DNA from: Myxococcales bacterium
GTDB taxonomy: Bacteria; Myxococcota; Polyangia; Nannocystales; Nannocystaceae
Assembly (NCBI GenBank): GCA_016793465.1
Contig: JAEUJW010000012.1
Span: 10,045 to 74,044 of the forward strand
DNA: 64,000 nucleotides
Reading direction: 5' to 3'
Shown here: positions 31,004 through 51,241 of the stretch, in pieces
Layout of the letters: each line of letters starts with the position of its first letter
How positions within the stretch are numbered: the stretch's first letter is position 1
Program-made: the position numbers and the translations under genes
The notes under the pieces: generated by a model
The model's database searches: none
The model's input: only the letters and a program-made list of their open reading frames with translations
Told to the model about the DNA's origin: nothing

Positions 31004-31059
31004 CGGGTCCTCGTGCCGTCGGTCGGCATGGAGGTGTCCCGTCAGCTGGGCAGATCGGC

Positions 31060-31602: not shown

Positions 31603-31635
31603 GCTGCTCCTGTCCCGCGAGGCGGGGTGTTCGGC

Positions 31636-33789: not shown

Positions 33790-34014
33790 CGTTTGATCTG
33801 CATATAGTCGGCCCTGAAAAATTTCTCGCCGCTCGGTGAGCCGATCCCCCGACCTCGCGGGAGAGGGGTATCAGGAGCCCGACACGAAATGCCCTCTCCA
33901 CGACCGGTCTTTCGCCCCATGCGCCGCGGTCTGCCGCGACGGCCCGCTGTCGACGCCGCGTGGCGGCGTCGCGTGGCCTCCCGCTGTCAGCCCGTCCCGC
34001 TACACTCGGCGGCC
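33790..34014. promoter_or_regulatory. Divergent promoter region between the kinase operon and the Wadjet-like operon
   Basis: 225 bp between two divergent starts. The 60 bp next to the kinase gene are AT-richer (TATATGC and AAATTT words), as expected for a promoter, while the half next to jetA is GC-rich. No convincing -35/-10 pair, operator repeat or RNA structure was identified, so the elements themselves are not placed. Confidence 0.35.
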
Positions 34015-35448
34015 ATGAGCGAAGTCGCGCCCGACAACTGGCAAGACGCCCTGACCCGCCGCTTGCGCACCCTGGTGCGGCTCGGGCCGCTGCACCGCAT
34101 CGAGGCCGTGAAGGTCCACCGCGACGACGACTTCGCCGACATCGACCTGCGGGCACTGTGTCTACGCGCGCTCGACCTGACGATCGAACGGATGGGTCTC
34201 GGCACCGGGATGACGCACGAGGAGCTGCGCGACGAGCTCGAGCCGATCGTCGGCAGCATGCGCCCCGACCTCGCGGCGAGCGAGCGGCGCGGCATCGCCG
34301 ACGCGGTCGTGCTCGACCTGCTCAACGAGCGCGACCGCCGACGCGAGTTCCGCGAGCGCTACGTCGCCTTCGACGGCGAGCGCGTGGTCCACCGGGAGAT
34401 CAGCCTGCGACTGCTCCGCGAGTCCGAGCTCGGCGACGGCACGATCGTCCTGAAGGCGACGACCGAGGCGATCAACATCTACGCGGGCATGCTCGAGTAC
34501 CCGGTCGAGGACGCCCAGATCGCCGAGGAGGCGGTGCTGCGCTCGCAGATCCACCGCGGCCTGATCGCCGAGGCGGTCAAGACGGCCCAGCGCTACCGCA
34601 TGCGCAGCATCGAGTACGAGCAGAAGATCCAGAGCTACCTCGAGACCGCCCGACGCGACGTCACGCAGGTCGACTGGCTACACGAGGTCCTCACTTTCCT
34701 CGCGGGCGCGCGGACCCACCTCGAGGATCGCCAACGCCACGACCAGGACCTCCTGCGGAGCATCGAGGTCCGCCAGGACGTCGCCAGCGACGCCGACGCC
34801 GCCCAGCTCGCCCGCCTCCGCGACACCGTCGAGGAGTGCTACCGCCGCCACATGCAGCTCCACGGCCGCATCATCCCGGCCAACCAGGACTACCTGCGCG
34901 AGCAGGACCGCCAGGTGTTCCGCCCGCGCCTCGCCGCCTCGTACCCCGATCTCGAGGCCGACGTCCTCCGGACGGCGCTCGATCTGTCGACCGGCGCCCT
35001 CGCGGGCCTCGCCGATGGCCTCCTGGCCCGGTTCCAGCCGCCCAAGCCGCCTCCGCAGCTCCGCCTGAGCACGCTGATCGACAAACTGCTCGCCCCGCGT
35101 CGCGCCGCCGACGAGGCCGCGGTGACACCCGACCTGACGGACCTCGAGACCATCGACACCGACCACACCTACTTCACGCCCGACGACCAGGCCATCGTCG
35201 CCGACCTGCTCCAATCCCTCTCGCCCGGCGAGCACACGCTGTCCGCCTGGCTCGCCGAGCTGCGGGCCGACGCCGTCGCACCGCGGCTGCTCCGCCTGCT
35301 CGGGCTCCGGCTCCTCGCGGTGTTCGGCAACCCCGGCGACGCGCTCGCCCGCAGCTACGACGTCCGGGGCAGCGGCCGCTTCCTCGTCGACCCCGACTTC
35401 CTCGGCGACGACCTCATCCTCCGCAAACGACAGGACAAGGACCCATGA
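34015..35448 (+). CDS. jetA: Wadjet-like JetA (kleisin-type subunit)
   Basis: 477 residues, largely helical, with charged heptad-like stretches (SQIHRGLIAEAVKTAQRYRM and later LQHDQ-like repeats) and no enzymatic motif. The call comes mainly from context: first gene of a four-gene operon followed by a small winged-helix-type protein, an SMC-like ATPase and a TOPRIM-type nuclease, the order of JetABCD (equivalent to MksF/E/B/G). In that complex JetA bridges the SMC heads. The frame is open about 40 codons upstream, but the ATG here gives a normal protein start. Its stop overlaps the jetB ATG (ATGA). Which Wadjet type it belongs to cannot be settled by eye. Confidence 0.75.
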   Translation: MSEVAPDNWQDALTRRLRTLVRLGPLHRIEAVKVHRDDDFADIDLRALCLRALDLTIERMGLGTGMTHEELRDELEPIVGSMRPDLAASERRGIADAVVLDLLNERDRRREFRERYVAFDGERVVHREISLRLLRESELGDGTIVLKATTEAINIYAGMLEYPVEDAQIAEEAVLRSQIHRGLIAEAVKTAQRYRMRSIEYEQKIQSYLETARRDVTQVDWLHEVLTFLAGARTHLEDRQRHDQDLLRSIEVRQDVASDADAAQLARLRDTVEECYRRHMQLHGRIIPANQDYLREQDRQVFRPRLAASYPDLEADVLRTALDLSTGALAGLADGLLARFQPPKPPPQLRLSTLIDKLLAPRRAADEAAVTPDLTDLETIDTDHTYFTPDDQAIVADLLQSLSPGEHTLSAWLAELRADAVAPRLLRLLGLRLLAVFGNPGDALARSYDVRGSGRFLVDPDFLGDDLILRKRQDKDP

Positions 35449-36188
35449 CCCCCCTCCACCTCGACGCCATCGAGTCCGCGGCGCGCCTGGTCGCGTTCGG
35501 ATTGACCCCGGGCCTCAAGCCGGCGCGCGAGCCGGCCTACGCCCAGCTCATCGAGCGCTACCGGACCGACGCGGCGATGCGCCAGTGCACCGATACCGTC
35601 GCGCGCGGGCTGCAGCTCGCGGTCCTCGGGTTCACGCCGCAGGGCATCGTCCTCGGCGCCGACGAGGACGGCCCGTTCGTCCACAAGCTGAGCGACTACC
35701 GCCGGACCACGCTGAGCGTGGAGGACCGGATGTGCCACGGCCTCGTCCAGCTGGCGATCGCGGCCTGGTGCTTCCCGACCGCGCAGGACCTCGCGGCCTC
35801 GGACGACAGCGCCGGCATCCGCTTCTCGACCAACAACGTCGTCGGCTACCTCGGCCGGCTGAGCGAGGAGCTGCAGCGCCGCAGCCTGCACGACCCCGAG
35901 CTCGGCTCGCCCGAGCTGCGCGAGGCGTGGCGGGCGATCCTCCAGCGCCCCGAGACGCGCGCCACCCCCGACGGCCGCCGCACCGCGGGCACCCTGCACG
36001 GCATGGTCGAGTACGCCCTCGAGGTCCTCGAGAAGGGGAGCCTCGTGCGCCGCATGTCCGACGACGACGGCGGCACCTGGCAGGCCCTCGCGGCCTACCG
36101 CATCCACGTGCGCGAGCTCGCCGCGCACGACGCCTTCACCCTCGTCCAGGGCGCCCGCTCCGCCCGCGACACCGCCACCCGGGAGTAA
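35445..36188 (+). CDS. jetB: Wadjet-like JetB (KITE / DUF4194-type subunit)
   Basis: 247 residues, translationally coupled to jetA. Mixed helical protein with a likely winged-helix core (YRRTTLSVEDRMCHGLVQLA, FSTNNVVGYLGRLSEELQRR) and a short C-terminal strand pair. No catalytic residues. In MukE/MksE/JetB proteins this fold dimerises and binds the kleisin and DNA. It lies 5 bp upstream of the SMC gene. Assignment rests on size, position and general pattern rather than a signature motif. Confidence 0.72.
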   Translation: MTPLHLDAIESAARLVAFGLTPGLKPAREPAYAQLIERYRTDAAMRQCTDTVARGLQLAVLGFTPQGIVLGADEDGPFVHKLSDYRRTTLSVEDRMCHGLVQLAIAAWCFPTAQDLAASDDSAGIRFSTNNVVGYLGRLSEELQRRSLHDPELGSPELREAWRAILQRPETRATPDGRRTAGTLHGMVEYALEVLEKGSLVRRMSDDDGGTWQALAAYRIHVRELAAHDAFTLVQGARSARDTATRE

Positions 36189-36193
36189 CGAAC

Positions 36194-39100
36194 ATGGCCC
36201 GCCTCATGCGCCTCCACTTCGCGTCGATCGGCCACCGCGACGCCCGCCTGTCCCCCCTCACCCTCGACCTCCGCGACGAGAACCACGGCACCGGCGTCGA
36301 CACCGTGCTGTGGCTCCGCAACGGCGGCGGCAAGTCGTCGATCCTCAACCTGTTCTTCTCGCTGCTCCGGCCGGGCGCCCGCGACTTCCTCGGCTCGGCC
36401 GCGGAGGGCAAGAGCCGCCGCCTCGCCGACTACGTCAAGGACAACGACCTCGCGTATGTCGTCAGCGAGTGGGACCTCGCCCCCCGCCTCGACCTGCTCG
36501 GCTCGGCCCCGACCCACATCCACGTGCTCGGCCAGGTCCTCAGCTGGAAGGGCCTGCAGCGCTCACCCGACGAGTCCAAGCTGCGCAAGCTGCTGTTCAG
36601 CTTCCACGCCGGCGCCGGGCTCGGGTTCGACGATCTGCCGATCCGCGGCCTCGGCGAGCCGGTCGGCTCGTTCGAGGCGTTCCGCGAGTGGCTCGCCGGT
36701 CACAAGAGCCGCAGCCCCGCGCAGCAGGTCTTCTACACCGACGCGCCGTCGACCTGGCGCGCGCACCTCGGTCAGCTCGGCCTCGACCCCGACCTCATGA
36801 AGGTCCAGGTCGAGATGAACACCCGCGAGGGCGCCGCCGACGAGAGCTTCCGCTTCCACGACGCCAGGGCGTTCGTCGACTTCTTCCTGCAGCTCGCCAT
36901 GGACCTCGACAAGGCGAGCGAGCTGTCCGCCAACCTCGAGACCTTCCGCAGCAAGCTGCAGCAGCGGCCGGTCCTCCTGCTCGAGCGCCAGCTGTTCGAC
37001 GCCGCCTTGCCGCCGCTGCGCGAGCTCTCGGCCGCCGTCGACGCCCGCGAGGCCGCCCACCGCCACCTCGGCGAGGTCACCGACGCGGCCTCGGGTACCG
37101 CCGCCGCACTGCGCCAGCGCGCCGACAGCTTCGAGCGCCGCGCCGCCGAGCGCCGCGCGTCCCAGCAGGACGCCCAGGAGAAGGCCCGCCTCGCCGGCAA
37201 CGAGGCCGACCTCAAGCGCCGCTGGGCCAGCGGCGTCGAGCGCCACGCCATCCGCCTGCGGGCCAGGGAGGCCGAGGATGCGCTCGCCCGGGCGCGCGCG
37301 ATCGAGGCCGACCGCCAGCGGGCCGTCCACACCGTCGAGGCCGCCGGCACCCTCTCGCAGGTCGAATCTCTGGCCGCCCAGGTCGCCGCCAAGCAGGTCG
37401 CCCTCGACCGCAGCACGCAGGCGCTCGTGCCCCTGAAGGAGTCGCTCGAGCACGCGGGCTCGCGTCTGCGGCTCGCGCTCCGGCGGAGCGACGAGCTGCT
37501 CGCCGGGCACGAGCAGGAGGCCGCGACCCTCCACCGCGGCTGCAAGGCGACGGAGCAGGCGCTGCGCGACGAGCAGAGCCGGGCGGACACCCGGGCCGGG
37601 GGTCTGGCCGCCGAGATCCGCGGCCACCGCCAGCACCTCAAGGATCGCGAGCACGCGCGCGAGGCCCTCGGCCGCGACGGCGTGCTCGCCCCCTACGAGA
37701 GGGCGGAGGACGCGCTCGCTCGCTGGCAGGAGGCCGCCGCCCGCGCCGCCGCCCGCGCCCGCCAGGCCGGCGAGCGCCACGAGCAGCGCACGCGCGAGCG
37801 ACAGGAGCTCGCCGCCACGCTCCGCCCGCTCGGGGAGGAGCGCGGCCGGGTCGAGGCCCAGGCGAAGGCCGCGCGCACGACCCTCGACCAGGCGATCGGC
37901 TGGCGCGACCGTCTGCGCCGCACCCCGATCCTCGGCGAGGTCCAGGGCGTCGACGAGGCCGATCTCGAGCAGCCGCGCCTCGAGACCCTGCTGCGCCAGC
38001 AGGCCGAGGCGGCCCGTCGGAGGATCCTCGAGCTCGGCGTCGACGCGGCCGAGGACGAGCGGGCGCTCGCCGCCCTGCGCAGCGACGGCTTCCTCCCCCC
38101 GACCCGCGACGTCGAGGAGGTCGTGCGATCGCTGCGCGAGCGCAAGGTCGCCGCGCACGCTGGCCTGCGCTACCTCGCCGAGAACCACTCCAGCGCCGAG
38201 AGCCGCGAGCACATCGCCCGCGACCCCGCGCGCCACGCCGGCGTCGTCGTCCTCCGCCAGGAGGACCTCACCGTCGCTCGGACCCTCCAGACGCTCGACA
38301 TGCGCCTGCGGACCCCGATCCAGGTCACGTGGGTCCGCGCCGACGACCCGACCGACGGCGCCGCGTGCGTCCTGCCGCCCGACCCCGCCACCTTCGACCG
38401 CGCCGCCGCCGACGCCCGCCGCCATGAGCTCACCGAGATGAGCGAGGCCCGTCGTCGCGAGTCCGACGACCTCCACCGCCGCGAGCACGCCTGCAACGCC
38501 GCCGCCGACGAGCTGGCCCGCTGGCTCGCCGCGTGGGGCGGCGGCAAGCTCGAGGCGCACGAGTCCCTGCTCGGCTCCCTGGTCCGGCACGCGCAGCAGC
38601 TCGCCGAGCAGATCGCGGACGTCGAGGCGAACCTGGCCCGGCTCGCCGCCGACATCCAGGCGGCCGCCGACGAGCGCCGGACCGCCGACGCCGAAGCCGC
38701 CGCCGCGAAGCAGCACGCCGGCCGCGTCGCCGCCTTCATCGAGCAGTACGACCGCCACTTCCAGGCCTGGACCGACGAGCTCGATCGCCTGCAGCGCGAG
38801 TCCGACGCGCTCGGCCGCCGCCGCGACGAGCTCGCCGACCTGATCACGCAGGCCGGCGAGCGGACCCACGAGGCCCAGCGCCGGCTCGACGAGCTCGGGC
38901 ACCAGCGCCGCGCGATCCGCCGGCAGATCGACGCGATCCTCTACCGCGCCGCCGACGAGCCCGACGACGCCCCGACCGTCGCCGAAGCCGAGGCGCTCTA
39001 CGACCAGCTGCGCGCCAGCTACGAGCAGAAGACCAGCGAGAACCGCCTCCAGTGGGAGCTCGACCAGCTGCAGCAGGCCCTCCTCGGCGTGCGCGCCGCG

Positions 39101-40522
39101 TACACGCAGCATCTCGCCCGCGGCCTCGACGAGCCGGAGATCCGCCGCGCGCTCGCCCGCGGCGACCTGCCGGGCCAGCTCGCCCGCGGACAGGCGGCGC
39201 TGGCCGACGCTGTCCGCGACCACGCCCGGGCGGCCAACACCCACGAGATCGCCCAGAAGGCTGCCACCGAGCTCCAGCGCAAGCGCGACGCCGACGACGT
39301 CCCGACGGACGGCCGCCCCCTGCCGACCACCAGCCGCGACGCCGACGCGCTCGCCCTCCAGCTCCGCGACGAGGCCCTGACCGCCTCCGCCGAGCATGAG
39401 CGCCGGCGCGGCGAGGCGCAGCAGCACGACGAGGCCGCGAAGCAGCTCGCCACCCGCCGGGCCGCGCACGCGAACGTCCTCGACCTCCTGATCGCTGTCG
39501 CCGGCGAGCTCGCCGAGCGCCCGCCGCGGGACCTCCCGGACGACGACGACGCCGTCCGGTCCGCCGTCACCGACCTGTGCGCGCGCCTCAAGGACGCCCG
39601 CGCCGCGGACGAGCGGACGGCCCAGCGCGTGCGCAGCTGCGGCGAGGCCGTGCGCAGCATCGCCGCCGAGGAGCGGTTCGCCAGCCTCAAGAACCAGGCC
39701 CGCGACCGCCTACGGACCGACGTCGCCGAGCTCGCCGCCGACGCCGCGAAGTTCGCCGACGAGTTCGAGAAGGCGCGGGAGATCCTCGGCGCCGCGATCG
39801 CCGAGCTCGACGACCACCGCCGGATCCTGATCACCAACCTGATCGGCCTCGGCGAGGACGCCGCCCACGTCCTGCGCCAGGCCGCCCGCGCCAGCGTGCT
39901 CCCGGAGTCCCTCGGCCCGTGGGGCGGCCGCAGCTACCTGCGGGTCGACTTCCAGATCCCCGACGGCGACGCCGACAAGCAGGCGCGCATCGCCCCGCTG
40001 ATCGACCGCCTCATGGACGCGGCGACCGTGCCGAACGCCCTCAACCTCGTGCGCCAGGCGATCTTCGAGCTCGTCGGCGGACGTCACGACGCCTTCAAGG
40101 TCACCGTGCTCAAGCCCGACGCCGTCCTCCGCCCCGACGCGATCCCCGTCGAGCTGCTCAGCACCTTCAGCCGCGGCCAGCAGCTCACCGCCGCGATCCT
40201 CCTCTACTGCACGATCGTCCAGATCCGGGCCCGCCGCCGCGGCCGCGGCCGCGCCGTCGCCGACGCCGGCACCCTGATCCTCGACAACCCGATCGGCACC
40301 TGCTCGAGCCGCGCCCTGCTCGAGATGCAGCGGACGATCGCCCAGAAGATGGGCGTCCAGCTCGTCTACACCACCGGCGTCGAGGACGCCGACGCGATCG
40401 CCGTGCTTCCGAACACGATCCGCCTGCGCAACTCCCACCGCGACCGCCGGACCGGCGACCTCCACGTCACCGAGGATGCCGACCCCGTCGAGGCCGTGCG
40501 CCTCCACGCGAGGACCGCGTGA
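36194..40522 (+). CDS. jetC: Wadjet-like JetC (SMC-type ATPase)
   Basis: 1442 residues with split ATPase head and long coiled coils. Walker A LRNGGGKSS near the N-terminus (K47). Coiled coil about 290-500 and 560-1240, rich in Ala/Glu/Arg/Gln heptads and interrupted around 580-720 by what may be a hinge or elbow. C-terminal signature FSRGQQLTAA (about 1323) and Walker B LILDNPIG (about 1361), where Asn follows the Asp in place of the usual Glu, as in several MukB/JetC proteins. It would extrude DNA loops and identify small circular DNA for JetD. GGGAG precedes the ATG, and the stop overlaps the jetD GTG. Confidence 0.85.
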   Translation: MARLMRLHFASIGHRDARLSPLTLDLRDENHGTGVDTVLWLRNGGGKSSILNLFFSLLRPGARDFLGSAAEGKSRRLADYVKDNDLAYVVSEWDLAPRLDLLGSAPTHIHVLGQVLSWKGLQRSPDESKLRKLLFSFHAGAGLGFDDLPIRGLGEPVGSFEAFREWLAGHKSRSPAQQVFYTDAPSTWRAHLGQLGLDPDLMKVQVEMNTREGAADESFRFHDARAFVDFFLQLAMDLDKASELSANLETFRSKLQQRPVLLLERQLFDAALPPLRELSAAVDAREAAHRHLGEVTDAASGTAAALRQRADSFERRAAERRASQQDAQEKARLAGNEADLKRRWASGVERHAIRLRAREAEDALARARAIEADRQRAVHTVEAAGTLSQVESLAAQVAAKQVALDRSTQALVPLKESLEHAGSRLRLALRRSDELLAGHEQEAATLHRGCKATEQALRDEQSRADTRAGGLAAEIRGHRQHLKDREHAREALGRDGVLAPYERAEDALARWQEAAARAAARARQAGERHEQRTRERQELAATLRPLGEERGRVEAQAKAARTTLDQAIGWRDRLRRTPILGEVQGVDEADLEQPRLETLLRQQAEAARRRILELGVDAAEDERALAALRSDGFLPPTRDVEEVVRSLRERKVAAHAGLRYLAENHSSAESREHIARDPARHAGVVVLRQEDLTVARTLQTLDMRLRTPIQVTWVRADDPTDGAACVLPPDPATFDRAAADARRHELTEMSEARRRESDDLHRREHACNAAADELARWLAAWGGGKLEAHESLLGSLVRHAQQLAEQIADVEANLARLAADIQAAADERRTADAEAAAAKQHAGRVAAFIEQYDRHFQAWTDELDRLQRESDALGRRRDELADLITQAGERTHEAQRRLDELGHQRRAIRRQIDAILYRAADEPDDAPTVAEAEALYDQLRASYEQKTSENRLQWELDQLQQALLGVRAAYTQHLARGLDEPEIRRALARGDLPGQLARGQAALADAVRDHARAANTHEIAQKAATELQRKRDADDVPTDGRPLPTTSRDADALALQLRDEALTASAEHERRRGEAQQHDEAAKQLATRRAAHANVLDLLIAVAGELAERPPRDLPDDDDAVRSAVTDLCARLKDARAADERTAQRVRSCGEAVRSIAAEERFASLKNQARDRLRTDVAELAADAAKFADEFEKAREILGAAIAELDDHRRILITNLIGLGEDAAHVLRQAARASVLPESLGPWGGRSYLRVDFQIPDGDADKQARIAPLIDRLMDAATVPNALNLVRQAIFELVGGRHDAFKVTVLKPDAVLRPDAIPVELLSTFSRGQQLTAAILLYCTIVQIRARRRGRGRAVADAGTLILDNPIGTCSSRALLEMQRTIAQKMGVQLVYTTGVEDADAIAVLPNTIRLRNSHRDRRTGDLHVTEDADPVEAVRLHARTA

Positions 40523-41541
40523 GCGCCGCCGAGGTCCTCCTGCACGCGCTGCGCGAGCACGCCGGCAAGCGCCGGCGCCTCGCCCTCGACGACGTCTGGC
40601 ACGTCTTCCGCGCCACGCTGGCGATCGAGTACAGCGACCGCGGACGCGAGGCCCTCGCCGCCTACCTCGTCGACCTCCAGGGCCAGGGCCACCTGCAGCT
40701 CCCGCGCCAGCACAGCCTGTGGGACCGCACGCCGGAGCCCCCGCTCCCGCGGTGGGTCCAGCTCGCAACCCCGGCCCGGGCCGGCCCCCCGATCGATCAC
40801 CGCGCCGTCGCCTGGCCGCCCGAGCTGGCGCGTCTGGTCGACGAGCCGCGGATCGCCCCGGATGTGCTGCAAGACCTCCTCAAAATTAAACGATTCCTCG
40901 CCGAGGGCGGCCGCCGACGCGAGCCCGTGCCGCTGCGCGAGCGCTCGGTCGAACTCCTCGGCGACGAGAAGCGCCTCGACGTGCTGCTGCGCTCGCGCCT
41001 GTTTCGCAGCATTGGCCTCGGCCCCGAGATCCTGCGCGCGCGCGAGGTCCCCGTCCCGATCGTCTGGGAGCCCGGACCCGACGACACCGACGCCACCAGC
41101 ATCCTCGTCCTCGAGAACCTGCACACGTACGACTCCTTCCGCCGCTGGAACGCCCGCGAGGGCGCACACCTCGCGGTTGTCTACGGCGGCGGCAAGGCGT
41201 TCGCCGGCATGCTCGACGACCTCGGTCGCATCGTCGTCGACCTCGGCGCCTTCGCGATCCACTACTTCGGCGACCTCGACGCCGAGGGCCTGTACATCGC
41301 CGCCGCCGCCGCCCGGGCCCTCGGCGAGCTCCCGCTCGTCGCCGCCGAGCGCTGGTACGACCTCCTGCTCGCCCGCGGCGCAGGTCTCGAGCTCCCGGAC
41401 ATCGAGCCAAGCACCCCCGAGTTCGCCCTGCTCTGGCTCCCGGAGCGCCTCCGAGACCCGGTCCGGCAACTCCTCGCCGCCGGCCGGCGCCTCCCCCAGG
41501 AGCTCGTCGGGTGGGAGCAACTGCGAACTTCCACCCGATAG
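40519..41541 (+). CDS. jetD: Wadjet-like JetD (DUF2220 TOPRIM-type nuclease)
   Basis: 340 residues, GTG start overlapping the jetC stop (GTGA). The N-terminal part looks like winged-helix arms (ALDDVWHVFRATLA, AAYLVDLQGQGHLQL). The C-terminal TOPRIM-like nuclease carries the JetD pattern: LENLHTYDSF with catalytic E199, a short GGGK turn, then YFGDLDAEGLYIA with D252 and D254. JetD cleaves plasmid DNA once the JetABC motor has trapped it. An AT-rich codon run (CTCAAAATTAAACG) occurs near residue 123. The operon is intact, so a functional anti-plasmid system is likely. Confidence 0.87.
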   Translation: MSAAEVLLHALREHAGKRRRLALDDVWHVFRATLAIEYSDRGREALAAYLVDLQGQGHLQLPRQHSLWDRTPEPPLPRWVQLATPARAGPPIDHRAVAWPPELARLVDEPRIAPDVLQDLLKIKRFLAEGGRRREPVPLRERSVELLGDEKRLDVLLRSRLFRSIGLGPEILRAREVPVPIVWEPGPDDTDATSILVLENLHTYDSFRRWNAREGAHLAVVYGGGKAFAGMLDDLGRIVVDLGAFAIHYFGDLDAEGLYIAAAAARALGELPLVAAERWYDLLLARGAGLELPDIEPSTPEFALLWLPERLRDPVRQLLAAGRRLPQELVGWEQLRTSTR

Positions 41542-41631: not shown

Positions 41632-42006
41632 TCACTCTCGGTCTTTACCGGTCAGCAGATACTCGAGCCGATCGCTCTCGACGGCCACGCGCCGGAGGAC
41701 CATCAGGAACTCTCGCGCGGTCGCACCGGCCGTGGGTAGCCACCCGGAGGCGACGATGCGGCCGCGGGGGTCGATGCGAAAGCTGACGAGCTGGGTCGTG
41801 CGGTTGAGCCGCCAGAGCCGGAGCGCGAGGTCCCCCGAGCTGCGCCCCGCGAATGAACGGACGACGACCGCATGGAACTCGAACGCGTCCTCGGTCGCCA
41901 GGACCCGTACGCGGTGTCGGCGGCCGCTCTCGAAGCGAACCAGCACACCGTCACCGTCGACCTCGACGGACGATCCGCGGCAGAAAGTCCGCCAGTCAGC
42001 GCCCAT
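41632..42006 (-). CDS. YbjN / type III chaperone-fold-like small protein
   Basis: 124 residues, last gene of the four-gene minus-strand operon; its ATG lies within the helicase gene's last codons (11-bp overlap). The pattern LRLWRLNRTTQLVSFRID, then GRIVASGWLP and a C-terminal helix VLRRVAVESDRLEYLL resembles the YbjN/TY3-chaperone-like fold, which usually binds proteins rather than acting as an enzyme. A longer in-frame reading extends 44 codons into the helicase gene and is not preferred. Role in the operon unknown; a small adaptor or stabiliser is plausible. Confidence 0.62.
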   Translation of the reverse strand: MGADWRTFCRGSSVEVDGDGVLVRFESGRRHRVRVLATEDAFEFHAVVVRSFAGRSSGDLALRLWRLNRTTQLVSFRIDPRGRIVASGWLPTAGATAREFLMVLRRVAVESDRLEYLLTGKDRE

Positions 42007-45000
42007 CCGTCCCTTCCTCCCGGAGATCGTCCTCGAAGGCCGCGAGGGCCGCGTCGCGGCCGTCGTCGAAGTGCTCGCGCTCCATGCGGTCGGCCTGCTC
42101 CGCGACCCGGCGCACCAGCGCCCCGACGCGCGAGGCATCGTGCTCCGGTGCGCCGAGGAGCACGTCGTCCTCGACGGTCAGGTCGTAGCGGCGCTCCTCC
42201 CTCGTCAGGATGGCGCCGATCCGCGACGGGAGCCGCGCGGCGCGGGCGGCGATCGGTTCGGGCTCGGCATCGGGATCCGTGCGGCCGATGGGGCTGATGC
42301 AGCGGACGAGCGGACAACCGGACTCGGCCCTCAGGATGAGCGTGAACGGCTGGACCCGGCCGTTCGGCAGCGTGGCCGTCCCGAGCAAGGAGCCCCACGA
42401 CGGGTGCGGTGCCCACACGACGGACAGGCCACCGAGGGCCGGTCGCGTCAGGCATGCGAAGCGCTCCCGCAGCCGAGCGGCGAGGTCGTCGGCGACCGCG
42501 AGAGACCGCTGTGACCCGCGGAGCGTCGACTCGAGCACCGGGAAGGCGCTCCGGAGCGGCTCGCGGGGGGCCTCGCGCTGCCGTCGCGTGACGAGGATCT
42601 CGCGCTCCACGTCGATGCGGCGTCGCTCCGTCGCGGGCGCTTGCAGAGACTCGTGCATCAGGCGCATGAAGACGTTCATGCGATCGAGCACGCGCTCGAC
42701 CTGCAGCACCTCGATCGTGTCCTTGAGGTAGGGGAAGTACACCTGCAGCAGATCATCACCTGCCGGTTCGCGGTTGAGCGTCGACAGCCGGCGGTCGGAC
42801 TGCGAGCGCACGCGGTCGATCCGGCCGATCCTCTGCTCCATCGCGGAGGGCGTCCACGAGATCCCGTAGTGCAGGACCGAGGAGCAGAACGTGTGCAGGT
42901 CCTCGCCTTCCTGCAACAGATCGGTCGTGACGAGCACGAACGGATAGCCCGGCATCCTGAACTGCCGGACGAGCGTCTTGTTGACGGACCCCGCCATCCC
43001 TCCGGTCGGCTGTTGCTCGCGCAGCAGCCGCGCCAGCTCCTGGCTCGATTCGTTGAGCGGATGGTTGCGGACGTCGGGCGCGTTGACATCGAGCAACAGC
43101 TCGAAGTTGTCCGCGAGATCGGCCAGCTCGTCAAAGGCCTGCCACCGGTGAGAGGGGCCCGCACAGCGCCCGGACTCGAGGACGTCGAGGTAGTCGACGA
43201 GCAGCCGCTCGCCGCCGGACTCCTGTTCGTCGGGCTCGTCGACCGGCTCGGCGCGCCCTGCCCCGCGCCCGAGGGCCAGCGTGGTGCGTCCAGACACGGC
43301 GGCGACGTAGAGATCGATGAACGCGTGGCCTAGGCGGGCCGCAGCGGCGAGCAGCTCGGCGCGGAGCACCTGCTCGCGGAACTGCCCGCGAAACCCGTCG
43401 ATCGTGGTCGCCGGCGTCGACGGGCCCGGCCAGATGCGGGCCCGCAGCGCCGCCCGCTCGGGTCGCCGCAGCTCGGTGAAGAATGTCCGGCGCTCGAGCG
43501 CGACGGCGATCTCGGGCGGCGCCGTCGCGGCGGGTTCGCGGGCCACGGAGGTGCGGAAGCGTTCGTCCCAGATCACGGCGGCGCGAGCCGCATGCTCGCC
43601 CCCGCCGTCCCGGAGGAGCTCGAGGGCCGCGCCCTGGGCGGCTTCCAGGCGGCTCGCTCGCGTCGCCACGCGCGCCTTGCGGCTGAGGTACTTCGCCGCC
43701 CGCCTGCGGACCTGCTCGGCGGCGTCCGCCTCGGACAGCCCGACCGCCGCGGCGAGCGCCCGCAGAACGCCCTCCGACTCGGCGTCGAGGAGGTCCATCA
43801 CGTAGTTGTCGGCGAAGAAGGTCGAGTATGGGCCGCTGCCCTTGATGAAGCGGGCCTGCAAGTTGGCTCCGCTGAGGGTCCCCTTCGGGCCCGTGCCACG
43901 GAAGAACCACGCGAAGAACGTGTCGACGCCGCCGCTGTCGTCGGGGTCCTCCTCGGCGCGGACGGTGTCGAGCGGCGCCGAGGTCGGGGCGCGCGGGCCT
44001 GCCATGGCCTCGGCCCGCTCCCGGCGGTACTGCGCGACGAGCACGTCGAGCTGCGCGTGCAGGTCGGCGGAGAGGCGCCCGCGGAGGTGGGGGATCAGCC
44101 AGTCGTCGTAGCGCTCGTCGAGCTTGCGCTTCAGCTCCTTCACCGACGCCACGCGTCGCACGAACAGGAGCGACTTCTTGCCGGTCTGCCAGGCCGCCTG
44201 AAGGCTGTCGACGACCGCGTCCATCTTCGGGTGCGGCATCTCGCGCCCGAACTTCCGTCGGTAGCTCGCGGCGAGGCGGTTGAGGTCGTGCACGTCGATC
44301 CCCTCGCGCTCGCGCGCGTCCTCCGCCTGCTCCGAGTCGTCGAACACCGCCCCGTCGTCGTCGTCGCGCTTCAGCTTCGCGGTCTCGAGGAAGCTCTCGA
44401 ACGACGCGAGCATGCCGATCTGGAACGAGCGGTTGAACTGCTTGCCGCTGAGGAGCTCGCTGACCTTCTTCTGCACCAGCGCGACGAGCAGGCGCTGCCG
44501 GACGTCGGCGATCTCGATCGGCGCGTCGTGCTGATGCACCCCGCCGGCCCGCCACTCTCGGCGGTACAGGTTCTTCGTGTGCTCGCCCCCCGCGATCTGG
44601 ATCGTCGTCACGCGACGGACCAGGAAGCGGGCCGCGACCTCCTTCTTGCGCGCCTCGGGCACCTCCTCACGGCGGAGCTCGTCGAAGCCGGAGGCGAGCC
44701 CGAACAGATCCAGCTGGTTCCAGACGTGCCGGTAGGTCTCCTCGAGCGGCGTCGCCGACAGGAACAGCACGCGCTCGGCACGAGGGCCGTAGCCGGGAAA
44801 CCGTCGCGGGCTCGGGGCCTCGCCGGGCGGGTGGCGACCGAACGCGAGGCTGAGCACCTGGTTTCGGGTCGAGCTGCCGCTCGCTACGCCGTGCTTGAGG
44901 TTGTGCGCCTCGTCGACGATCACCAGGTCGAACTTCGGCAGCGCGCAGCACAGCACCTGGGCGACGCGCCGCTTGAAGTCGGCCTTGTCCGCGCCCGCGA

Positions 45001-45520
45001 AGACCTCGTCGCTCAGCCAGGGGAGCTGCTCGCGGAGGCGGTCACGCAGCCGTCGCCGGTCCTCGTCCGTCTCGCGGAGCGGGAGGCTGAAGCTGGACAT
45101 GCGGACGAAGAAGTCGCGGTTGGGGTCGAGGCTGGTCTCGTGGACCAGCTCGATCAGGTTGTCGCAAGAGACGAGCGCGCGGGCGGGGCGCCCGTCGAAC
45201 GACCGCACCCGCAAGTCTTCGAACCGCACGTTGTTGGCGGCGAAGTTGCTCAGCTCCTTTTGCCACTTGAGCTGGATGTTCTCCCGCGGCGCGAGGAAGA
45301 GGACGCGGAAGTCGGGCGCGAAGTGGCGGAACAGGGCGAGCGCCCCGAGCGCGACGTAGGTCTTGCCCATCCCGACCTCGTCGGCGAGATACGCGACCCT
45401 GTGCTCGCACAGGAGGTTGTGCAGGGCCACGGCGCCCCGGAGCTGCTCCTCGGCGCGGTGGCCCTCGCCGATCCTCCGCCCGAAGTCGAGGAGCGCCCGC
45501 GCGGCCTCGAGGTCGATCAT
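41996..45520 (-). CDS. SNF2-type SF2 helicase of an unassigned helicase-PLD operon
   Basis: 1174 residues. Helicase lobe 1: ADEVGMGKTY (Walker A, K53), APRENIQLKW, DEAH at 203-206 (IVDEAHNLKH) and FLSATPLEETY. A long insertion of about 400 residues, mostly helical, separates the lobes. Lobe 2 has TTDLLQEGEDLH, then MEQRIGRIDRVRSQSDRR (about 897-915). The C-terminal ~250 residues are unassigned. These motifs indicate ATP-driven duplex translocation, as in DrmD or other SNF2-like defence helicases, but it differs clearly from the DrmD at 9628. It overlaps the PLD gene by 4 bp upstream and the YbjN-like gene by 11 bp downstream, so the four products are probably made together. Confidence 0.83.
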   Translation of the reverse strand: MIDLEAARALLDFGRRIGEGHRAEEQLRGAVALHNLLCEHRVAYLADEVGMGKTYVALGALALFRHFAPDFRVLFLAPRENIQLKWQKELSNFAANNVRFEDLRVRSFDGRPARALVSCDNLIELVHETSLDPNRDFFVRMSSFSLPLRETDEDRRRLRDRLREQLPWLSDEVFAGADKADFKRRVAQVLCCALPKFDLVIVDEAHNLKHGVASGSSTRNQVLSLAFGRHPPGEAPSPRRFPGYGPRAERVLFLSATPLEETYRHVWNQLDLFGLASGFDELRREEVPEARKKEVAARFLVRRVTTIQIAGGEHTKNLYRREWRAGGVHQHDAPIEIADVRQRLLVALVQKKVSELLSGKQFNRSFQIGMLASFESFLETAKLKRDDDDGAVFDDSEQAEDAREREGIDVHDLNRLAASYRRKFGREMPHPKMDAVVDSLQAAWQTGKKSLLFVRRVASVKELKRKLDERYDDWLIPHLRGRLSADLHAQLDVLVAQYRRERAEAMAGPRAPTSAPLDTVRAEEDPDDSGGVDTFFAWFFRGTGPKGTLSGANLQARFIKGSGPYSTFFADNYVMDLLDAESEGVLRALAAAVGLSEADAAEQVRRRAAKYLSRKARVATRASRLEAAQGAALELLRDGGGEHAARAAVIWDERFRTSVAREPAATAPPEIAVALERRTFFTELRRPERAALRARIWPGPSTPATTIDGFRGQFREQVLRAELLAAAARLGHAFIDLYVAAVSGRTTLALGRGAGRAEPVDEPDEQESGGERLLVDYLDVLESGRCAGPSHRWQAFDELADLADNFELLLDVNAPDVRNHPLNESSQELARLLREQQPTGGMAGSVNKTLVRQFRMPGYPFVLVTTDLLQEGEDLHTFCSSVLHYGISWTPSAMEQRIGRIDRVRSQSDRRLSTLNREPAGDDLLQVYFPYLKDTIEVLQVERVLDRMNVFMRLMHESLQAPATERRRIDVEREILVTRRQREAPREPLRSAFPVLESTLRGSQRSLAVADDLAARLRERFACLTRPALGGLSVVWAPHPSWGSLLGTATLPNGRVQPFTLILRAESGCPLVRCISPIGRTDPDAEPEPIAARAARLPSRIGAILTREERRYDLTVEDDVLLGAPEHDASRVGALVRRVAEQADRMEREHFDDGRDAALAAFEDDLREEGTDGR

Positions 45521-47577
45521 GGCTCGGCGTCCTCCGTCTGCACGGCGGCCGCGCGTTTGAGGAACCAGCGGTCGAACCAGTCGAGGAATCCGGGCATATC
45601 GGCGTCGCCGCGAGCGAGCTCGTCGCGAACAGAAGACCCCTCGCCGATCCGCAACTCAAGCGTCCGTACGTCTTCGCGCCGCAGGTCCCAGTAGTCCGGG
45701 AATGTGCGACCGAGCTCGCGCAGGAGCTGCCTGGCGCACAGCAGGACGACATACTGCTCGACGCGGTCGCCGCCTCCTCCGGTGATGTCCGCCAGGACGC
45801 GGTCGATCAGGGTACCCAGCGAGTCGTACTTCTTGCCGAACAAGCGGTACTCGGCCTCGCGCTCCTTGCCGGCGGCGAGCGCCGCGCGGACGTGCTCCTC
45901 GAGGCAGGCGAAGGCGTGGAATATCCCGGCGAAGCGGTCGAACAGCGTCGACTCCGTCCGCAGCGGCGTCCATTTCGTCAGCAGCGGATCGTCGTCGCCG
46001 ACGGCGGCGCGCGCCTCGAGGAAGGCCGCCCGCTGCTCGACCGTCAGCAGCGCCCAGTAACGCAGGATGTCGGCCGCGCTCAGGTCGAACAGCAGCGAGG
46101 GACGACGCGCCATCCCCTCCTCCTGGACGAGCAGCAGCCCCGGCTCGGGCCGCTCACCGACGACCTCGAGCACCGAAGTCGACAGCAGGGTCTGCTCGAG
46201 TCGTGCGCTGTGCTCCGCACCGAGCGGGCTCCACACGCGCGCCGGCAGGTCGGCAAGCGCTAACACTGTCACGCCGCCGTGACGCACGAGCAGCGCCGGG
46301 GAGGGCCCGTCGCCGCCCCAGAGCGCGATGGCCTCGCGGGTGTCCCAGCGGTAGCGGAGCACCAACCGAGTCCCGCCACTGGTCGTCGTGCCCTCATCCT
46401 CCTCGCGGGGTGCAAACCCCGGCGGTCGCCGACTCTCGACGCCCAGCCACCAGTCCGGGCGCGCGCCCGTCGTCGCCTCGACCAGAAAGCCAGTCTCCCA
46501 GTTGCCCCCGCGACCCGCGACCCGGAGGGCGGCGGTCGTCAGGTTGGCCGAGCCGACGTACAGGAACTCGCGGCCGCCGCGCTTCGGCTCGAAGAAGCGA
46601 TACACCTTCGCGTGCACGACCCGCTGCTTGATGGCCTCCGCCTTGCCGAGCCGCAGCAGCTCGCCCGGCAGCGCCCCCCAGGAGGCCCCACGAGCGCACA
46701 TCCACTCGAACAGCGCCTCGGAGCACAGCGCCTCGCCGCGATCGTTCCGCGGCAGGAACACGCGGACATCCCGGGGCTCGAAGCGGTCGACCAACGCCGC
46801 CAACGGGGCCGACTCTCCGCCACCATCGAAGTAGGGCGAGACGACCTCGAGGCAGAGGCCGTGGAGCAGCTTGCCCGCGGTGCCCGCGAGGAAGTCCGGA
46901 AGCGATGCTTCACCGCCGTGGAAGTGCGTCGAGAGGCGCCCGTCGACCACGCGCCTGTCGAGCTGCGTCGTGTCGCGGAGAAACGCACGGATGTCGGAGG
47001 CGGCGCCGTGCGCCGCCCGTAGCTCGTCGTTGGGTCGGCGGCCCTCGGCCGCGCGTACGAGCCGGTCCACGAACTCGAGGAGCGCGTCGCGGAGCGGCGT
47101 TCGCTCTCCTGCCTGGATCTCCTCGACATGGGCGACCTCGACGTTCTCCCACCACCCGGCGCGCGTCAGGTTCGCCGAGGAGCACGAGCACAGGAGGGCG
47201 CGTGCGGGGGGCTTCTGCCCGTCGGCCTCGGTGTCCTCGACCAGGACCAGCACGTTCTTCGGGTGGAAGATGCCGGTCGAGTGCTGAATCGGGTACCGGC
47301 GGACGTCGAGCTTCATCCCGCCGCTGCCGTCGACGATGCCGTTCTGGTCGTAGTAGAGGGCGATCGTCCCGTCGATCGACCGCAGGGCGTCCTCGAGCTG
47401 CACGAGCTTGATCTTGCCGTCGTGGCTGAGCGGGATGTCGAGGAAGACCGGGAGGACCTCGGTCTCGAAGAAACTCGGCTCGAGACGGAACGTGGTGAAG
47501 ATCGCAGACACGAGCTTGCGGCCACGCATCCGCTCCTGGTAATGCTCCGACAGCACGGCCCGCGGGATCTCGGTCAT
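45517..47577 (-). CDS. PLD-superfamily nuclease with two HxK motifs
   Basis: 686 residues. Two PLD half-sites are visible: GIFHPKNVLVL (H105, K107) followed by SSANLTRAGW, and VVHAKVYRFF (about 320) followed by GSANLTTAAL. A complete intramolecular active site is therefore possible. The spacing HxK to S/N-rich motif matches the TDP1-like/PLD nuclease layout seen in several defence nucleases. The C-terminal 300 residues are unassigned. Its start overlaps the stop of the 449-residue protein and its stop overlaps the SNF2 helicase start. Expected to cut nucleic acid delivered by the helicase. Unlike MkoB at 25093 it carries both half-sites. Confidence 0.82.
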   Translation of the reverse strand: MTEIPRAVLSEHYQERMRGRKLVSAIFTTFRLEPSFFETEVLPVFLDIPLSHDGKIKLVQLEDALRSIDGTIALYYDQNGIVDGSGGMKLDVRRYPIQHSTGIFHPKNVLVLVEDTEADGQKPPARALLCSCSSANLTRAGWWENVEVAHVEEIQAGERTPLRDALLEFVDRLVRAAEGRRPNDELRAAHGAASDIRAFLRDTTQLDRRVVDGRLSTHFHGGEASLPDFLAGTAGKLLHGLCLEVVSPYFDGGGESAPLAALVDRFEPRDVRVFLPRNDRGEALCSEALFEWMCARGASWGALPGELLRLGKAEAIKQRVVHAKVYRFFEPKRGGREFLYVGSANLTTAALRVAGRGGNWETGFLVEATTGARPDWWLGVESRRPPGFAPREEDEGTTTSGGTRLVLRYRWDTREAIALWGGDGPSPALLVRHGGVTVLALADLPARVWSPLGAEHSARLEQTLLSTSVLEVVGERPEPGLLLVQEEGMARRPSLLFDLSAADILRYWALLTVEQRAAFLEARAAVGDDDPLLTKWTPLRTESTLFDRFAGIFHAFACLEEHVRAALAAGKEREAEYRLFGKKYDSLGTLIDRVLADITGGGGDRVEQYVVLLCARQLLRELGRTFPDYWDLRREDVRTLELRIGEGSSVRDELARGDADMPGFLDWFDRWFLKRAAAVQTEDAEP

Positions 47578-48923
47578 CGCGGACCTCTCAGCTCGTACGC
47601 GACGTTACGCAGCGATTCGATGAAATATGCGTGACGCCAGTAGTGCGGGAGCTCGTCGGCCGTCGGGAGCCGGGCGAGCTCGGCGTCGCGGAAGCGCACG
47701 AACAGCTTCCCGTCGCGAACTTCCACCCATGCCGCCGCTGCCGAGCGCGCCTTCATCACGGCGGCGTTCTGCGCGAGCACCAGCTCGAGAGCATCGTCAT
47801 ACCTCGCAGCGTGGAACGACGCCGCGAGCGCCAGCCACCGCCGACCTGATTCGCCATCCTCGACCGGCGAACGGAGCTCCGGCTCGAGCGCCGCGAGGGT
47901 CTCGAGGTCGATCGTGCGCTGCATCGCCGCGCCCCAGTGCCTGCGCACATCCTCCACGACTTGCGCTGGTCGCTGCCCGTCAGAGCCGAGCACGTGTTCG
48001 AAGAACACGACGGCCGGTGCGAGCAACAGTTCGGCCGCGCGGATCTTCTCGAGGCGGTCCGCGAGAGCTTCGCCAACCGCACCGCGCCGCACCGCGCGGG
48101 CCGCCAGCGTGCGTACCGTCTCCGCCGTCGGCGACCAGTCGCGGTCGTCGAGCGTCTCGCTGAGCAGCTCGGCGAACAGACGCTGCTTGCCGTGGGTACC
48201 TCGCGCCGGGTCGTGGTCACCGCGACCGCCACACAACAGGTGCTCCCGGTAGAGCACCCGCTCGGGTGCCCTTAACATCGCTATCACCCTGCCAATTCCC
48301 TGCAGCACCGCGGCGTCCCTTGAACGCTCACGGACGTCGAGCATGTACTCGCGCTCCGCCAGACGCTCGAGGATCCCCTTCACCGTCCGGAGCCCCACCG
48401 AATCGAGCGTGGGCAAGAGGCTGCGCTCCACGACCTCTCTGGCCTCCGTCGTGAGACGAGTCGGCTCCCCTTCGAGCAGTCCCGATGCTCGGGCAGGGAC
48501 CGAATAGAGGCCCCAGAGGCCGTAGACCTTCTGACTCCCGAGTATTTGCGCGGTGGCATCGGCTCCGAGCTTGACGCGATCTCCGTCTGCGAGCCGCTGC
48601 GCGACGCGCTCCGTCCCGCGGAAGCCCCGCTCGCGGTTGACATGCGATCGCGCGTACGCAGCCAGCTGCTCCCACTTCAAGAAAGTGTCCACGCGGTCCG
48701 CAGGACCGCCCGCGTCAGCGACCCGTTCGGCGAAGTAATAGCCGAGCAGCAACACGGTGAAGTCCCGCACCGAGCTGCTGACGGTCGTCAGGTTCGCCAC
48801 GACGCGGCGGCCCAGCCGGGACCAGATCGACTGCACGCCCAGCGGATCTCGCGAGCCTTTGATCGCGGCGCGGGCGTCGAGCTGGGTGAGGAACGGCGTG
48901 GGCATCGAGCCAGACCCAGACAT
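47574..48923 (-). CDS. Unknown 449-residue protein, first gene of the SNF2-PLD operon
   Basis: Not recognised as a named family. 449 residues, helical throughout. Near the N-terminus is a conserved-looking block (AAIKGSRDPLGVQSIWSRLG, then SSSVRDFTVLLLGYYFAERV). Later blocks are LGSQKVYGLWGLYSVPARAS and, at the C-terminus, DELPHYWRHAYFIESLRNVAYELRG. No cysteine clusters, P-loop or nuclease motif. The pattern suggests a sensor or specificity subunit for the helicase and PLD nuclease. The ATG chosen follows AGGTAGG; ATG at 48905 is a second option. The IS remnant begins about 12 bp upstream of the start codon, so the native promoter has probably been displaced. Confidence 0.72.
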   Translation of the reverse strand: MSGSGSMPTPFLTQLDARAAIKGSRDPLGVQSIWSRLGRRVVANLTTVSSSVRDFTVLLLGYYFAERVADAGGPADRVDTFLKWEQLAAYARSHVNRERGFRGTERVAQRLADGDRVKLGADATAQILGSQKVYGLWGLYSVPARASGLLEGEPTRLTTEAREVVERSLLPTLDSVGLRTVKGILERLAEREYMLDVRERSRDAAVLQGIGRVIAMLRAPERVLYREHLLCGGRGDHDPARGTHGKQRLFAELLSETLDDRDWSPTAETVRTLAARAVRRGAVGEALADRLEKIRAAELLLAPAVVFFEHVLGSDGQRPAQVVEDVRRHWGAAMQRTIDLETLAALEPELRSPVEDGESGRRWLALAASFHAARYDDALELVLAQNAAVMKARSAAAAWVEVRDGKLFVRFRDAELARLPTADELPHYWRHAYFIESLRNVAYELRGPR

Positions 48924-48935
48924 CCTACCTGGTAT

Positions 48936-49315
48936 TGAGCCGCGGACCGCGGTGAGTTTCAGGATAGTTGCCGCCCGGCTATTCAGGCGTGCTTGGCCTT
49001 GGAATCGCGGCGTTCGGGGTTGAGGCAGACGACGCGGACCGGGTTCCAGGAGCGGGTCTCACCGCTCCAGCGTTCGGGGTGGCGGCGACGGGCAGCGGCG
49101 TAGACGCTGCGGCGGCGGGCCAGGATGCCCTGGTGACGGCCGAAGTGGCGGTCGTCGGGGGTCACGAAGTTGATGGCGCTGTGGAGGTGTCTGGTGTTGT
49201 ACCAGTCGGCGAATTGTTCGAGCCAGGCGCGGGCCGCCGCGAGGTCGGCGAACGGGCGCGAGGGGAAGTTCGGGCGGTATTTGAGGGTGCGGAAGAGGGC
49301 TTCCGAGTAGGGGTT
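48936..49315 (-). mobile_element. 3' remnant of an IS3-family insertion sequence
   Basis: The element's end is placed at a TGAGCC sequence (48936), about 50 bp beyond the transposase stop, and contains a small palindrome (CCGCGGACCGCGG) of the kind found near IS ends. The internal side stops abruptly where the group II intron begins at 49316. The opposite half of the IS, with its other terminal repeat, is not present in the window. The exact terminus is inferred. Confidence 0.5.
48983..49315 (-). pseudogene. Truncated IS3-family transposase (integrase-core C-terminus)
   Basis: About 110 codons of the DDE/rve transposase C-terminus remain: NPYSEALFRTLKYRPNFP, then WLEQFADWYNTRHLHSAINF and LARRRSVYAAARRRHPERWS. 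The catalytic Glu of DDE is the E of YSEALF; the two Asp residues are missing because the 5' part is gone. The full family motif begins with Asp-Asn-Pro-Tyr; here the Asn codon is the first one left, and the intron's GTGTG begins immediately before it. Non-functional. Confidence 0.85.
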
Positions 49316-49829
49316 GTGTGCGCCTTGAGAAGGCACATTCATTACCGGGTGAAAGTCCCGGCCGGTCAACTGTCGCTCCGACCGGAAGCACCTGGAGCGG
49401 CCCAGGAGGTAACAAATGGGCTGAAGCACTGCAGGAAAAGGCCTCGAAAGGAGGTCAGCGAAGCATGCGGGCTGTAACGAGTAGTGAACGCTGAGCAGGC
49501 CCCGAAACGGCCGTTGTGGACGCCGACCCATCATAATCCTGGGGAAGGTCGTAGTTCATGGGGAAGTGAGCGACTTGCGCACCCATGAAGTCCACCGGGG
49601 TAGTGGCGATAGCACGCATGCAACAGAGTGAGTTGTGCAACAAGGGAAGTCTGCACCGGACTATCTCGGCTGGCTGCCGAGAAACAACGGCGGTCCCGTG
49701 AGGGACGGACGTCGGCCGGCGCAGATGGCGGATGGGTTCGTAGTACCGATGAAACCCGGTAACGCGGGTGGAGGGAAGGGGCCCTGATCCAGGAAACGGG
49801 AACAAAGCGGCGAAAGCTAGGAGATTGGC

Positions 49830-51167
49830 GTGAGCCTACAAACTCCGATAACGGTTGGGAAGCTGCAGACAGCCCTACACGAGAAAGCGAAGGCGGAACC
49901 GGACTATCGTTTCTATGTCCTTTGGGACAAGGTATGGCGGATGGACGTCCTCACCCACGCATATGCCCGTTGTCGTGCAAACGGCGGCTCGGCGGGCGTG
50001 GACGGGGAGACCTTCCGCGACATCGAGGACCAGGGGCGAGAGCGGTGGATCGGGAACCTCCAGGAGGAGTTGCGGAGCATGCGCTACGTGCCGCGGCCCC
50101 TTCTTCGAGTGTGGATCCCCAAGAGTAACGGCGGCGAGCGCCCTCTCGGCATTCCGACGATTCGCGATCGGGTCGTGCAGATGGCGATGGTGCTCGTGAT
50201 CGGGCCGATCTTCGAGACCGATCTGCTTCCACAGCAGTACGGTTTTCGGCCCAGGCTGGACGCCAAGATGGCGGTCCGGCACGTGTATTTCCACCTCACC
50301 AAACATCGGCGGACCGAGGTCGTCGATGGTGACCTGAAGGACTACTTCAACACCATCCCGCACGGCCCGTTGATGAAATGCGTGGCCAGACGGATCGCGG
50401 ACGGTCGTGTACTGTCCGTGATTCGATCCTGGCTCTGCGCATCGGTCGAGGAGCGACGAGGGCGACGAATCCAGCGCAGAGCGGATGCGAGGAAGACTCA
50501 TCGGGGGACCCCGCAAGGAGGCGTGATCTCTCCGATGCTGTCGAACCTCTATTTCAGGCGCTTCGTGCTGGCCTGGTACAGATTCGGCTTTGCGAGTAAG
50601 CTCGATGCTCACCTCATCAACTATGCTGACGATCTGGTGATCTGTTGCCGCCCTGGTGGTGGTGCAGAGGCATTGGCTCGGATGCGAGAACTGATGGATC
50701 GGCTCGGGCTCATCGTGAACGAAGAGAAGACCAGGCTCGTCACCCTGCCGAAGGAGGAGGTGACCTTCCTCGGCTACACGTTCAAGACCTGCTACACGCG
50801 GACGGGTCGTCCCTATCTGGGGACGAGACCGTCGAAGAAGGCGCTGCAGCGGGTTCGCCGTCGGGTCCACGAGGAGACGTCGATTTCCCGGTTGAACTCC
50901 ACACCCGCGAACCGGGTCGAAGTGCTCAATCGGATCGTACGTGGATGGTGTGGGTATTTTAATCAGGGACCTGTGTTCCGCGAGTACCGCATCATCAAGG
51001 CGTACACCAAGCGGCGTCTCCGGAGGTGGTTGATGAAGAAGCACAAACGGCAAGGCACGGGGTACCGCCAATACTCCGACGAATTTCTCTACGAGAAACT
51101 CGGCCTGTACGAACCGTGGGTGGTCCATCACGACCAGCCGAGCGCGAAGTCGCGAGGTCCTGGATGA
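49830..51167 (+). CDS. Group II intron reverse transcriptase/maturase (LtrA-type)
   Basis: 445 residues, GTG start with AGGAG just upstream. RT blocks in order: YVPRPLLRVWIPKSNGGERP (about 86-105), GDLKDYFNTI (167-176), GTPQGGVISPMLSN (226-239) and the catalytic YADD at 265-268, then EKTRLVTL and FLGYTF. The maturase X domain includes GWCGYF (about 373). It ends with a YRQYSDEFLYEKLGLYEPW tail and no HNH endonuclease, so it is an En-minus type that would use nicked or replicating DNA for primer supply. It binds the intron RNA, assists splicing and copies the intron into DNA. All catalytic residues are present. Confidence 0.95.
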   Translation: MSLQTPITVGKLQTALHEKAKAEPDYRFYVLWDKVWRMDVLTHAYARCRANGGSAGVDGETFRDIEDQGRERWIGNLQEELRSMRYVPRPLLRVWIPKSNGGERPLGIPTIRDRVVQMAMVLVIGPIFETDLLPQQYGFRPRLDAKMAVRHVYFHLTKHRRTEVVDGDLKDYFNTIPHGPLMKCVARRIADGRVLSVIRSWLCASVEERRGRRIQRRADARKTHRGTPQGGVISPMLSNLYFRRFVLAWYRFGFASKLDAHLINYADDLVICCRPGGGAEALARMRELMDRLGLIVNEEKTRLVTLPKEEVTFLGYTFKTCYTRTGRPYLGTRPSKKALQRVRRRVHEETSISRLNSTPANRVEVLNRIVRGWCGYFNQGPVFREYRIIKAYTKRRLRRWLMKKHKRQGTGYRQYSDEFLYEKLGLYEPWVVHHDQPSAKSRGPG

Positions 51168-51200
<33 letters not shown>

Positions 51201-51241
51201 GATGGGCGGGAGTCTGGAAACGGAGTCACGGCAAATCCTAC

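Follow-up and report, generated by a model that had tools for sequence, protein, structure and literature searches.

Four overlapping genes on the minus strand of a contig from a Myxococcales bacterium, here called A, B, C, and D, form an operon that we read as encoding a putative complex against phages (or mobile DNA), of the same kind as PDC-M27 and Azaca, in which a chaperone-fold subunit (D) is dedicated to the helicase (C). We put the probability of this reading at roughly 0.6. The DNA analyzed, called the window below, was the whole 64,000-nucleotide stretch of contig JAEUJW010000012.1 (assembly GCA_016793465.1, positions 10,045 to 74,044), and the operon spans positions 41632–48923 of it. 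An initial annotation, made from the sequence alone, had proposed that successive genes overlap by 4, 4, and 11 base pairs (bp), and the coordinates confirmed this. It had also called the system undescribed. For the core formed by A, B, and C that claim was not supported, since all three match PDC-M27, a candidate system in PADLOC-DB 2.0.0. The four-gene form, with its subunit of chaperone fold, is a variant both distinct and conserved, with no model in PADLOC-DB (D is unmatched) and no description found in the open-access literature, to which all of our literature searches refer. The features of the operon are as follows, with lengths in amino acids (aa):

47574..48923, minus strand: gene A, PDC-M27A-like, 449 aa; largely helical, with a possible winged-helix part around residues 50–205
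45517..47577, minus strand: gene B, PLD-family nuclease with two HxK motifs, kin to ZacB and PDC-M27B, 686 aa
47257..47265, minus strand: first HxK motif of B, H105-P-K107; its histidine and lysine do not vary among 22 aligned proteins
46606..46614, minus strand: second HxK motif of B, H322-A-K324; its histidine and lysine do not vary among the same 22 proteins
41996..45520, minus strand: gene C, SF2/SNF2-type helicase or translocase, kin to PDC-M27C, 1174 aa
45359..45373, minus strand: Walker A motif of C, residues 50–54; G50, G52, K53, and T54 invariant in 21 aligned proteins
44903..44914, minus strand: DEAH-type box of C, residues 203–206; D203, E204, and H206 invariant in the same 21 proteins
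41996..42490, minus strand: C-terminal extension of C, residues 1011–1174; possible second chaperone-fold domain
41632..42006, minus strand: gene D, predicted type III secretion chaperone/YbjN fold, 124 aa

The mechanically called open reading frame (ORF) for D opens at 42138; with the ATG at 42006 as its start, D overlaps C by 11 bp and is 124 aa long. This is the most frequent D length among relatives, whose starts were picked by a rule, nearness to the end of C.

Linkage of the four genes was examined by scanning genomes with the A alignment. The scan yielded 37 pattern matches and 33 loci; it needed exact short patterns and is therefore not exhaustive. B came after A in 29 of the 33 loci, C was present in 23, and D in 20. 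Two of the loci without B (L001 and L028) lie at contig ends, and in two with C and no D (L014 and L016) the contig stops within or just past C. All 20 loci with an intact C and sequence beyond it contained D, as a separate gene in 19 and as a natural C–D fusion in one (L033). The C–B overlap was 4 bp in most loci; D was the last gene and in most loci overlapped C. The linkage is far beyond chance, and the four genes are a real operon. Homologues unlinked in other genomes had been named beforehand as an outcome that would speak against the system; when this was checked, the homologues were found linked. As the initial annotation had proposed, a helicase and a PLD nuclease belong to one operon; the catalytic residues that it had singled out, both HxK motifs and the Walker A lysine K53, are invariant.

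The distribution of D follows that of the operon. Among 195 Myxococcota genomes, A was found in six: as full-length copies in four, which also had D; as a match placed as in the broken L013 contig in G146; and as a 30-residue scrap in G087. D was found in four of the 195, all among those six and each time beside C. Seven operon-bearing genomes gave one D match each, and in the genomes searched D was confined to the operon, apart from one weak, broken match. Pairwise distances were correlated among the four proteins, with r of 0.78–0.97 (0.86 for C and D; 10 loci plus the window, 5000 permutations). Two further propositions were rejected. A viral home for the operon was suggested by IMG/VR loci L034 and L035; both duplicate L004 (99.8%) and were not counted. 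The second was a fifth conserved gene lying upstream of A: a same-strand ORF ends there in 19 of 26 loci, and only L004 and L024 share one, which is DUF2779-like. The DUF2779 protein lies directly upstream of A in both (L004, 8463–9995; L024, 1802–3445), and the PDC-M27 plasmid locus L092 encodes one at 880–2382 with one gene between it and A.

The predicted structure of D (pLDDT 90) has the fold of type III secretion chaperones and YbjN, and the D profile matched 15 generic YbjN regions with P 7e-9 (one region may repeat a neighbor). The description of D as YbjN-like thus holds by modeled fold and by profile. D shares these two properties with the TY-Chap/YbjN/type III secretion class I chaperone superfamily and differs in falling below the Pfam gathering scores (TY-Chap1, 22.5 bits against 27; YbjN, 16.3 against 22) and in sitting in a helicase–nuclease operon. 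At E ≤ 1, the YbjN model found 7 of 20 D proteins (best 4e-5). A scan of 58 Myxococcota genomes with the YbjN model of Pfam marked 15 places in 12 genomes; G001 and G193, both among the 58, carry D, which was not at any of these places. PADLOC-DB gave no match to D or to a relative's D. A protein search needing shared short words returned 84 relatives of D, one of which is named "YbjN domain-containing protein" by NCBI. Passages in PMC9503650 report TY-Chap domains predicted in other antiviral neighborhoods.

Protein A is a real family, as its conserved-looking blocks had suggested: at least 850 proteins matched at E ≤ 1e-3 (7998 candidates scored), and 36 positions were invariant in an alignment of 37 rows. 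The nearest A protein among the matches listed is 93% identical and of metagenome origin. A search of plasmids for the window's A or B found no copies. A 47.5-kb fecal phage record (MT835507.1) encodes, at 16719–17156, a piece 43% identical to A residues 12–158. In Pfam, the only row for A was DUF7291, below cut-off (E 0.01); B matched PLDc_2, also below cut-off; and C matched ResIII and Helicase_C. In PADLOC-DB, A matched PDC-M27A (4e-19, 66.7 bits); B matched ZacB (6.5e-17) and, weakly, PDC-M27B (2.1e-8); and C matched PDC-M27C (3.6e-81) and ZacC (6e-20). These matches indicate that the core is kin to both the PDC-M27 candidate and Azaca. When profiles were compared with solved structures, B matched only the restriction endonuclease 2c1l at E ≤ 0.1 (E 0.0021), C matched nothing at the strict limit of 1e-8, and neither A, the C extension, nor D gave anything under E 0.28. 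A VIA comparison for A gave nothing useful.

The phylogeny of C was determined by maximum likelihood from the first 990 residues, with a midpoint root and a long-branch warning for L058, L033, and L057. The 21 four-gene or fused C proteins formed one group with support of 99/96. Within it, fused L033 lay beside L030, and the window C was closest to that of Corallococcus sicarius. PDC-M27, L058, and the four-gene group joined at one fork without a resolved order, and Azaca lay further out. The tree mixes phyla, which suggests transfer.

All 21 aligned C proteins continue into the C-terminal extension, and C measures 1146–1208 aa in the 19 intact separate C proteins of genome loci. Judged by eye, the extension resembles D in its end, RVAxxADxLE....GxD, and in its order of secondary structure: a helix, four strands, a second helix, two strands, and a last helix. 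An hhalign comparison of extension and D gave P 9e-4 over 38 columns. Of 48 windows taken across A, B, and C, the one holding the extension scored highest against D (25.5, P 0.0016; runner-up 18.4), although multiplying that P by the 48 windows gives about 0.08. Kinship of the extension with D is thus possible from these sequence comparisons, a lead rather than a result. If true, C and D would each contribute one member of a chaperone pair, and L033 would hold the two in tandem in one protein. D and the extension occur together in the four-gene clade, and a sensitive six-frame scan of six related loci, three PDC-M27 and three Azaca, detected neither at E < 0.5.

Several observations weigh against the reading proposed here. 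Against 15 generic YbjN regions, the extension gave P 0.25, and several B and C windows scored higher; extension and D have no Pfam match in common; and co-divergence of the extension was looser (r 0.64–0.74). A model of the tail, scanned against 12 proteins, scored 2.0 bits against an A protein and 0.3 against a PDC-M27 C; we took both as noise. The PADLOC PDC-M27C models have 656, 892, and 1217 positions, and the longest implies that some PDC-M27 helicases may also carry an extension, three loci having been compared. Correlated distances can also arise from common descent alone. The predicted fold of A had no match among solved structures (best Foldseek E 0.37). The operon is also incomplete or interrupted in places. 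L020 has A without B, C, or D, though 8.6 kb remains; L029 lacks B, with A broken and 643 bp remaining; in L032 some 128 residues of A are left; and B is shortened in L013. The C of L016 lies in two reading frames, and L015 lacks D, its C ending near residue 995 and followed by transposase-like sequence. ORFs named by eye as transposase-like (L014) and AlbA-like (L021) lie between A and B. G193 has A on one contig and C with D on another, and G005 adds to its D a weak D-like match with stops. In the flanks of relatives, BREX-, Dpd-, DISARM-, and Zorya-type models turned up in a scan that covered 97 of 99 chosen flanking ORFs and had no random-ORF control.

Helicase–nuclease defense systems are common, and how they discriminate phage from host is often unknown. 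In the complex proposed here, C would load onto foreign or damaged DNA as a translocase or helicase powered by ATP, and B, the PLD nuclease, would degrade that DNA, a division of labor like that in other helicase–nuclease defenses. The third core subunit, A, is probably a DNA- or partner-binding adaptor. In this clade D would be integral to the complex as its fourth subunit, with a chaperone fold that binds peptides; it may dock on the C-terminal region of C, where it would keep the machine off or else sense a phage protein as the trigger. D is tied to C because the two are adjacent and once fused (L033), and because D co-occurs with the C extension. By analogy, a peptide-sensing role for D is plausible, because YbjN-type DR1245 binds the DdrB protein, which is like a single-stranded DNA-binding protein (SSB), according to passages of PMC3575483, and because phage SSB triggers another defense system, according to the title of PMC10732053.

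A more specific form of this mechanism is doubtful: the chaperone-like C-terminal domain of C and D might form a heterodimer that captures the unfolded tail of a phage protein, such as SSB, and switches the nuclease on. The result of the generic YbjN comparison for the extension and the long M27C model both lowered its odds. SycN and YscB pair up as a heterodimer in type III secretion, and if the proposal were true, a defense complex would have a secretion-chaperone pair as its receptor.

We consider it unlikely that D (with the C tail) restrains B or the whole complex until a phage protein displaces D and frees the nuclease, leading to abortive infection. The model for such control would be chaperone-controlled toxin–antitoxin modules. 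Type III chaperone folds are known to bind and restrain partners, and the position of D as last gene, overlapping C in most loci, suits this proposal, as does the binding of DdrB by DR1245, of YbjN fold, in the passages of PMC3575483. However, the fusion partner of D is the helicase, not the nuclease, and the three PDC-M27 and three Azaca loci have a like nuclease with no D detected.

The matches of A, B, and C to PDC-M27 models and the three PDC-M27 loci without detectable D would also agree with an ordinary divergent PDC-M27, in which D would be a non-essential accessory, or an aid to expression, with no mechanistic role. We regard this as quite improbable, given that all 20 testable loci have D, in one case as a natural fusion, and that it is always beside C in the four Myxococcota genomes that have it. 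A DNA-repair or genome-maintenance module is very improbable: DR1245, which has the same fold as D, works with the SSB-like repair protein DdrB (passages of PMC3575483), but A and D are patchy (6 and 4 of 195 Myxococcota genomes), phyla are mixed in the C tree, some flanks hold defense-type genes, and PDC-M27 relatives occur on conjugative and mobilizable plasmids. Across several phyla, one clade of this candidate system keeps both its longer motor protein and an additional subunit with a chaperone fold, so that the switch is testable gene by gene.

The operon sits in a defense island. A Wadjet type III system at 33889–41541, with matches to JetA3, JetC3, and JetD3, ends about 90 bp from D and is convergent with the operon; its JetB position had no PADLOC match at E ≤ 1e-8. 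The window also holds Mokosh-, Dpd-, and Druantia-type genes. The region 26412–33789 contains an MkoA-like protein (6e-162) and two further genes, one kinase-like and one at 29627–31639 (670 aa) that had no PADLOC match at E ≤ 1e-8. A DruE-like helicase, a NERD+UvrD protein, and a full-length DpdE lie in one run at 2118–12444, an unusual Druantia/Dpd mixture. Just upstream of A, a group II intron (two Rfam matches) occupies 49343–51241, apparently inside an integrase-core transposase gene (rve_3). ORFs there are 49830–51167, a reverse transcriptase as labeled from reading the ORF, and 48983–49534. No tRNA genes were found in the window.

Known and candidate systems were also compared with the operon. 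DISARM, too, has a PLD protein (DrmC) and an SNF2-type helicase (DrmD). The matches were remote: DrmD reached 66.7 bits against an NCBIfam cut-off of 610 and DrmC 18.9 against 133, and all NCBIfam matches were far below cut-off. The operon had been judged not to be DISARM, and we agree, as no DUF1998 (DrmB) or DNA methylase is encoded in the four genes, the only genes scanned for these. Mokosh was likewise rightly dismissed: the four genes contain no kinase domain at E ≤ 1, and no Mko model was among the best 25 of 30 PADLOC families for C. A PLD-like domain is tabulated for both Azaca and Mokosh in PMC10952713.

Azaca (ZacA-ZacB-ZacC), reportedly described in 2022, is closer. Both it and the window operon have a three-gene core that includes a PLD protein and a helicase of SNF2 type, and B and ZacB are homologous over about 300 columns (P 4.5e-11, profile comparison). 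Three true ZacB proteins scored 391–556 bits with the ZacB model, compared with 59.6 for B, and a true ZacC scored 1136 bits with the ZacC model, compared with 69.4 for C. Membership in Azaca was rejected: ZacA, its first gene, is a DUF6361 protein, whereas A had no DUF6361 or ZacA match at E ≤ 1. A and ZacA/DUF6361 are nonetheless colinear over 280 columns with a common RD-x-LG motif (P 0.04, or 0.12 with three sequences); the score of 24.4 compares with at most 20.9 in 20 column shuffles and 16.8 for the reversed profile. A remote common origin of the two first genes is therefore possible on this alignment. L058 (2159–14052) is a related yet different locus, with a short SNF2 protein, a PLD protein, and a first gene of 433 aa whose start faintly resembles A (6.3 bits); another helicase and a protein judged by eye to be actin/Hsp70-like adjoin it.

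The core matches PDC-M27, and the earlier statement that it fits no nameable combination was not supported, given these matches and the kinship of B and C to ZacB and ZacC. Passages of PMC12988326 present PDCs as putative, nominated by guilt by embedding and mostly without experimental validation, and we found no paper naming PDC-M27, DUF6361, or ZacABC. Searches for more PDC-M27 loci gave one new locus in 298 genomes and none intact in 247, and megablast found no Escherichia coli copies of L063. The loci compared were L063, L091 (a Vibrio nigripulchritudo plasmid), and L092 (a Rhodoferax antarcticus plasmid); against them, the profiles scored 62–71 bits for A, 42–64 for B, and 223–231 for C. 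PDC-M27 has the same core in the same order, with M27A first, the PLD protein M27B second, and the helicase M27C third, but in the three loci compared it consists of three genes only, with a C of 869–893 aa. Because of its fourth gene and longer C, we file the window operon as a variant of PDC-M27 and not as a plain member, with three loci compared and one M27C model long. PDC-M27, until now a database name, thereby gains a fuller anatomy and a place beside Azaca.

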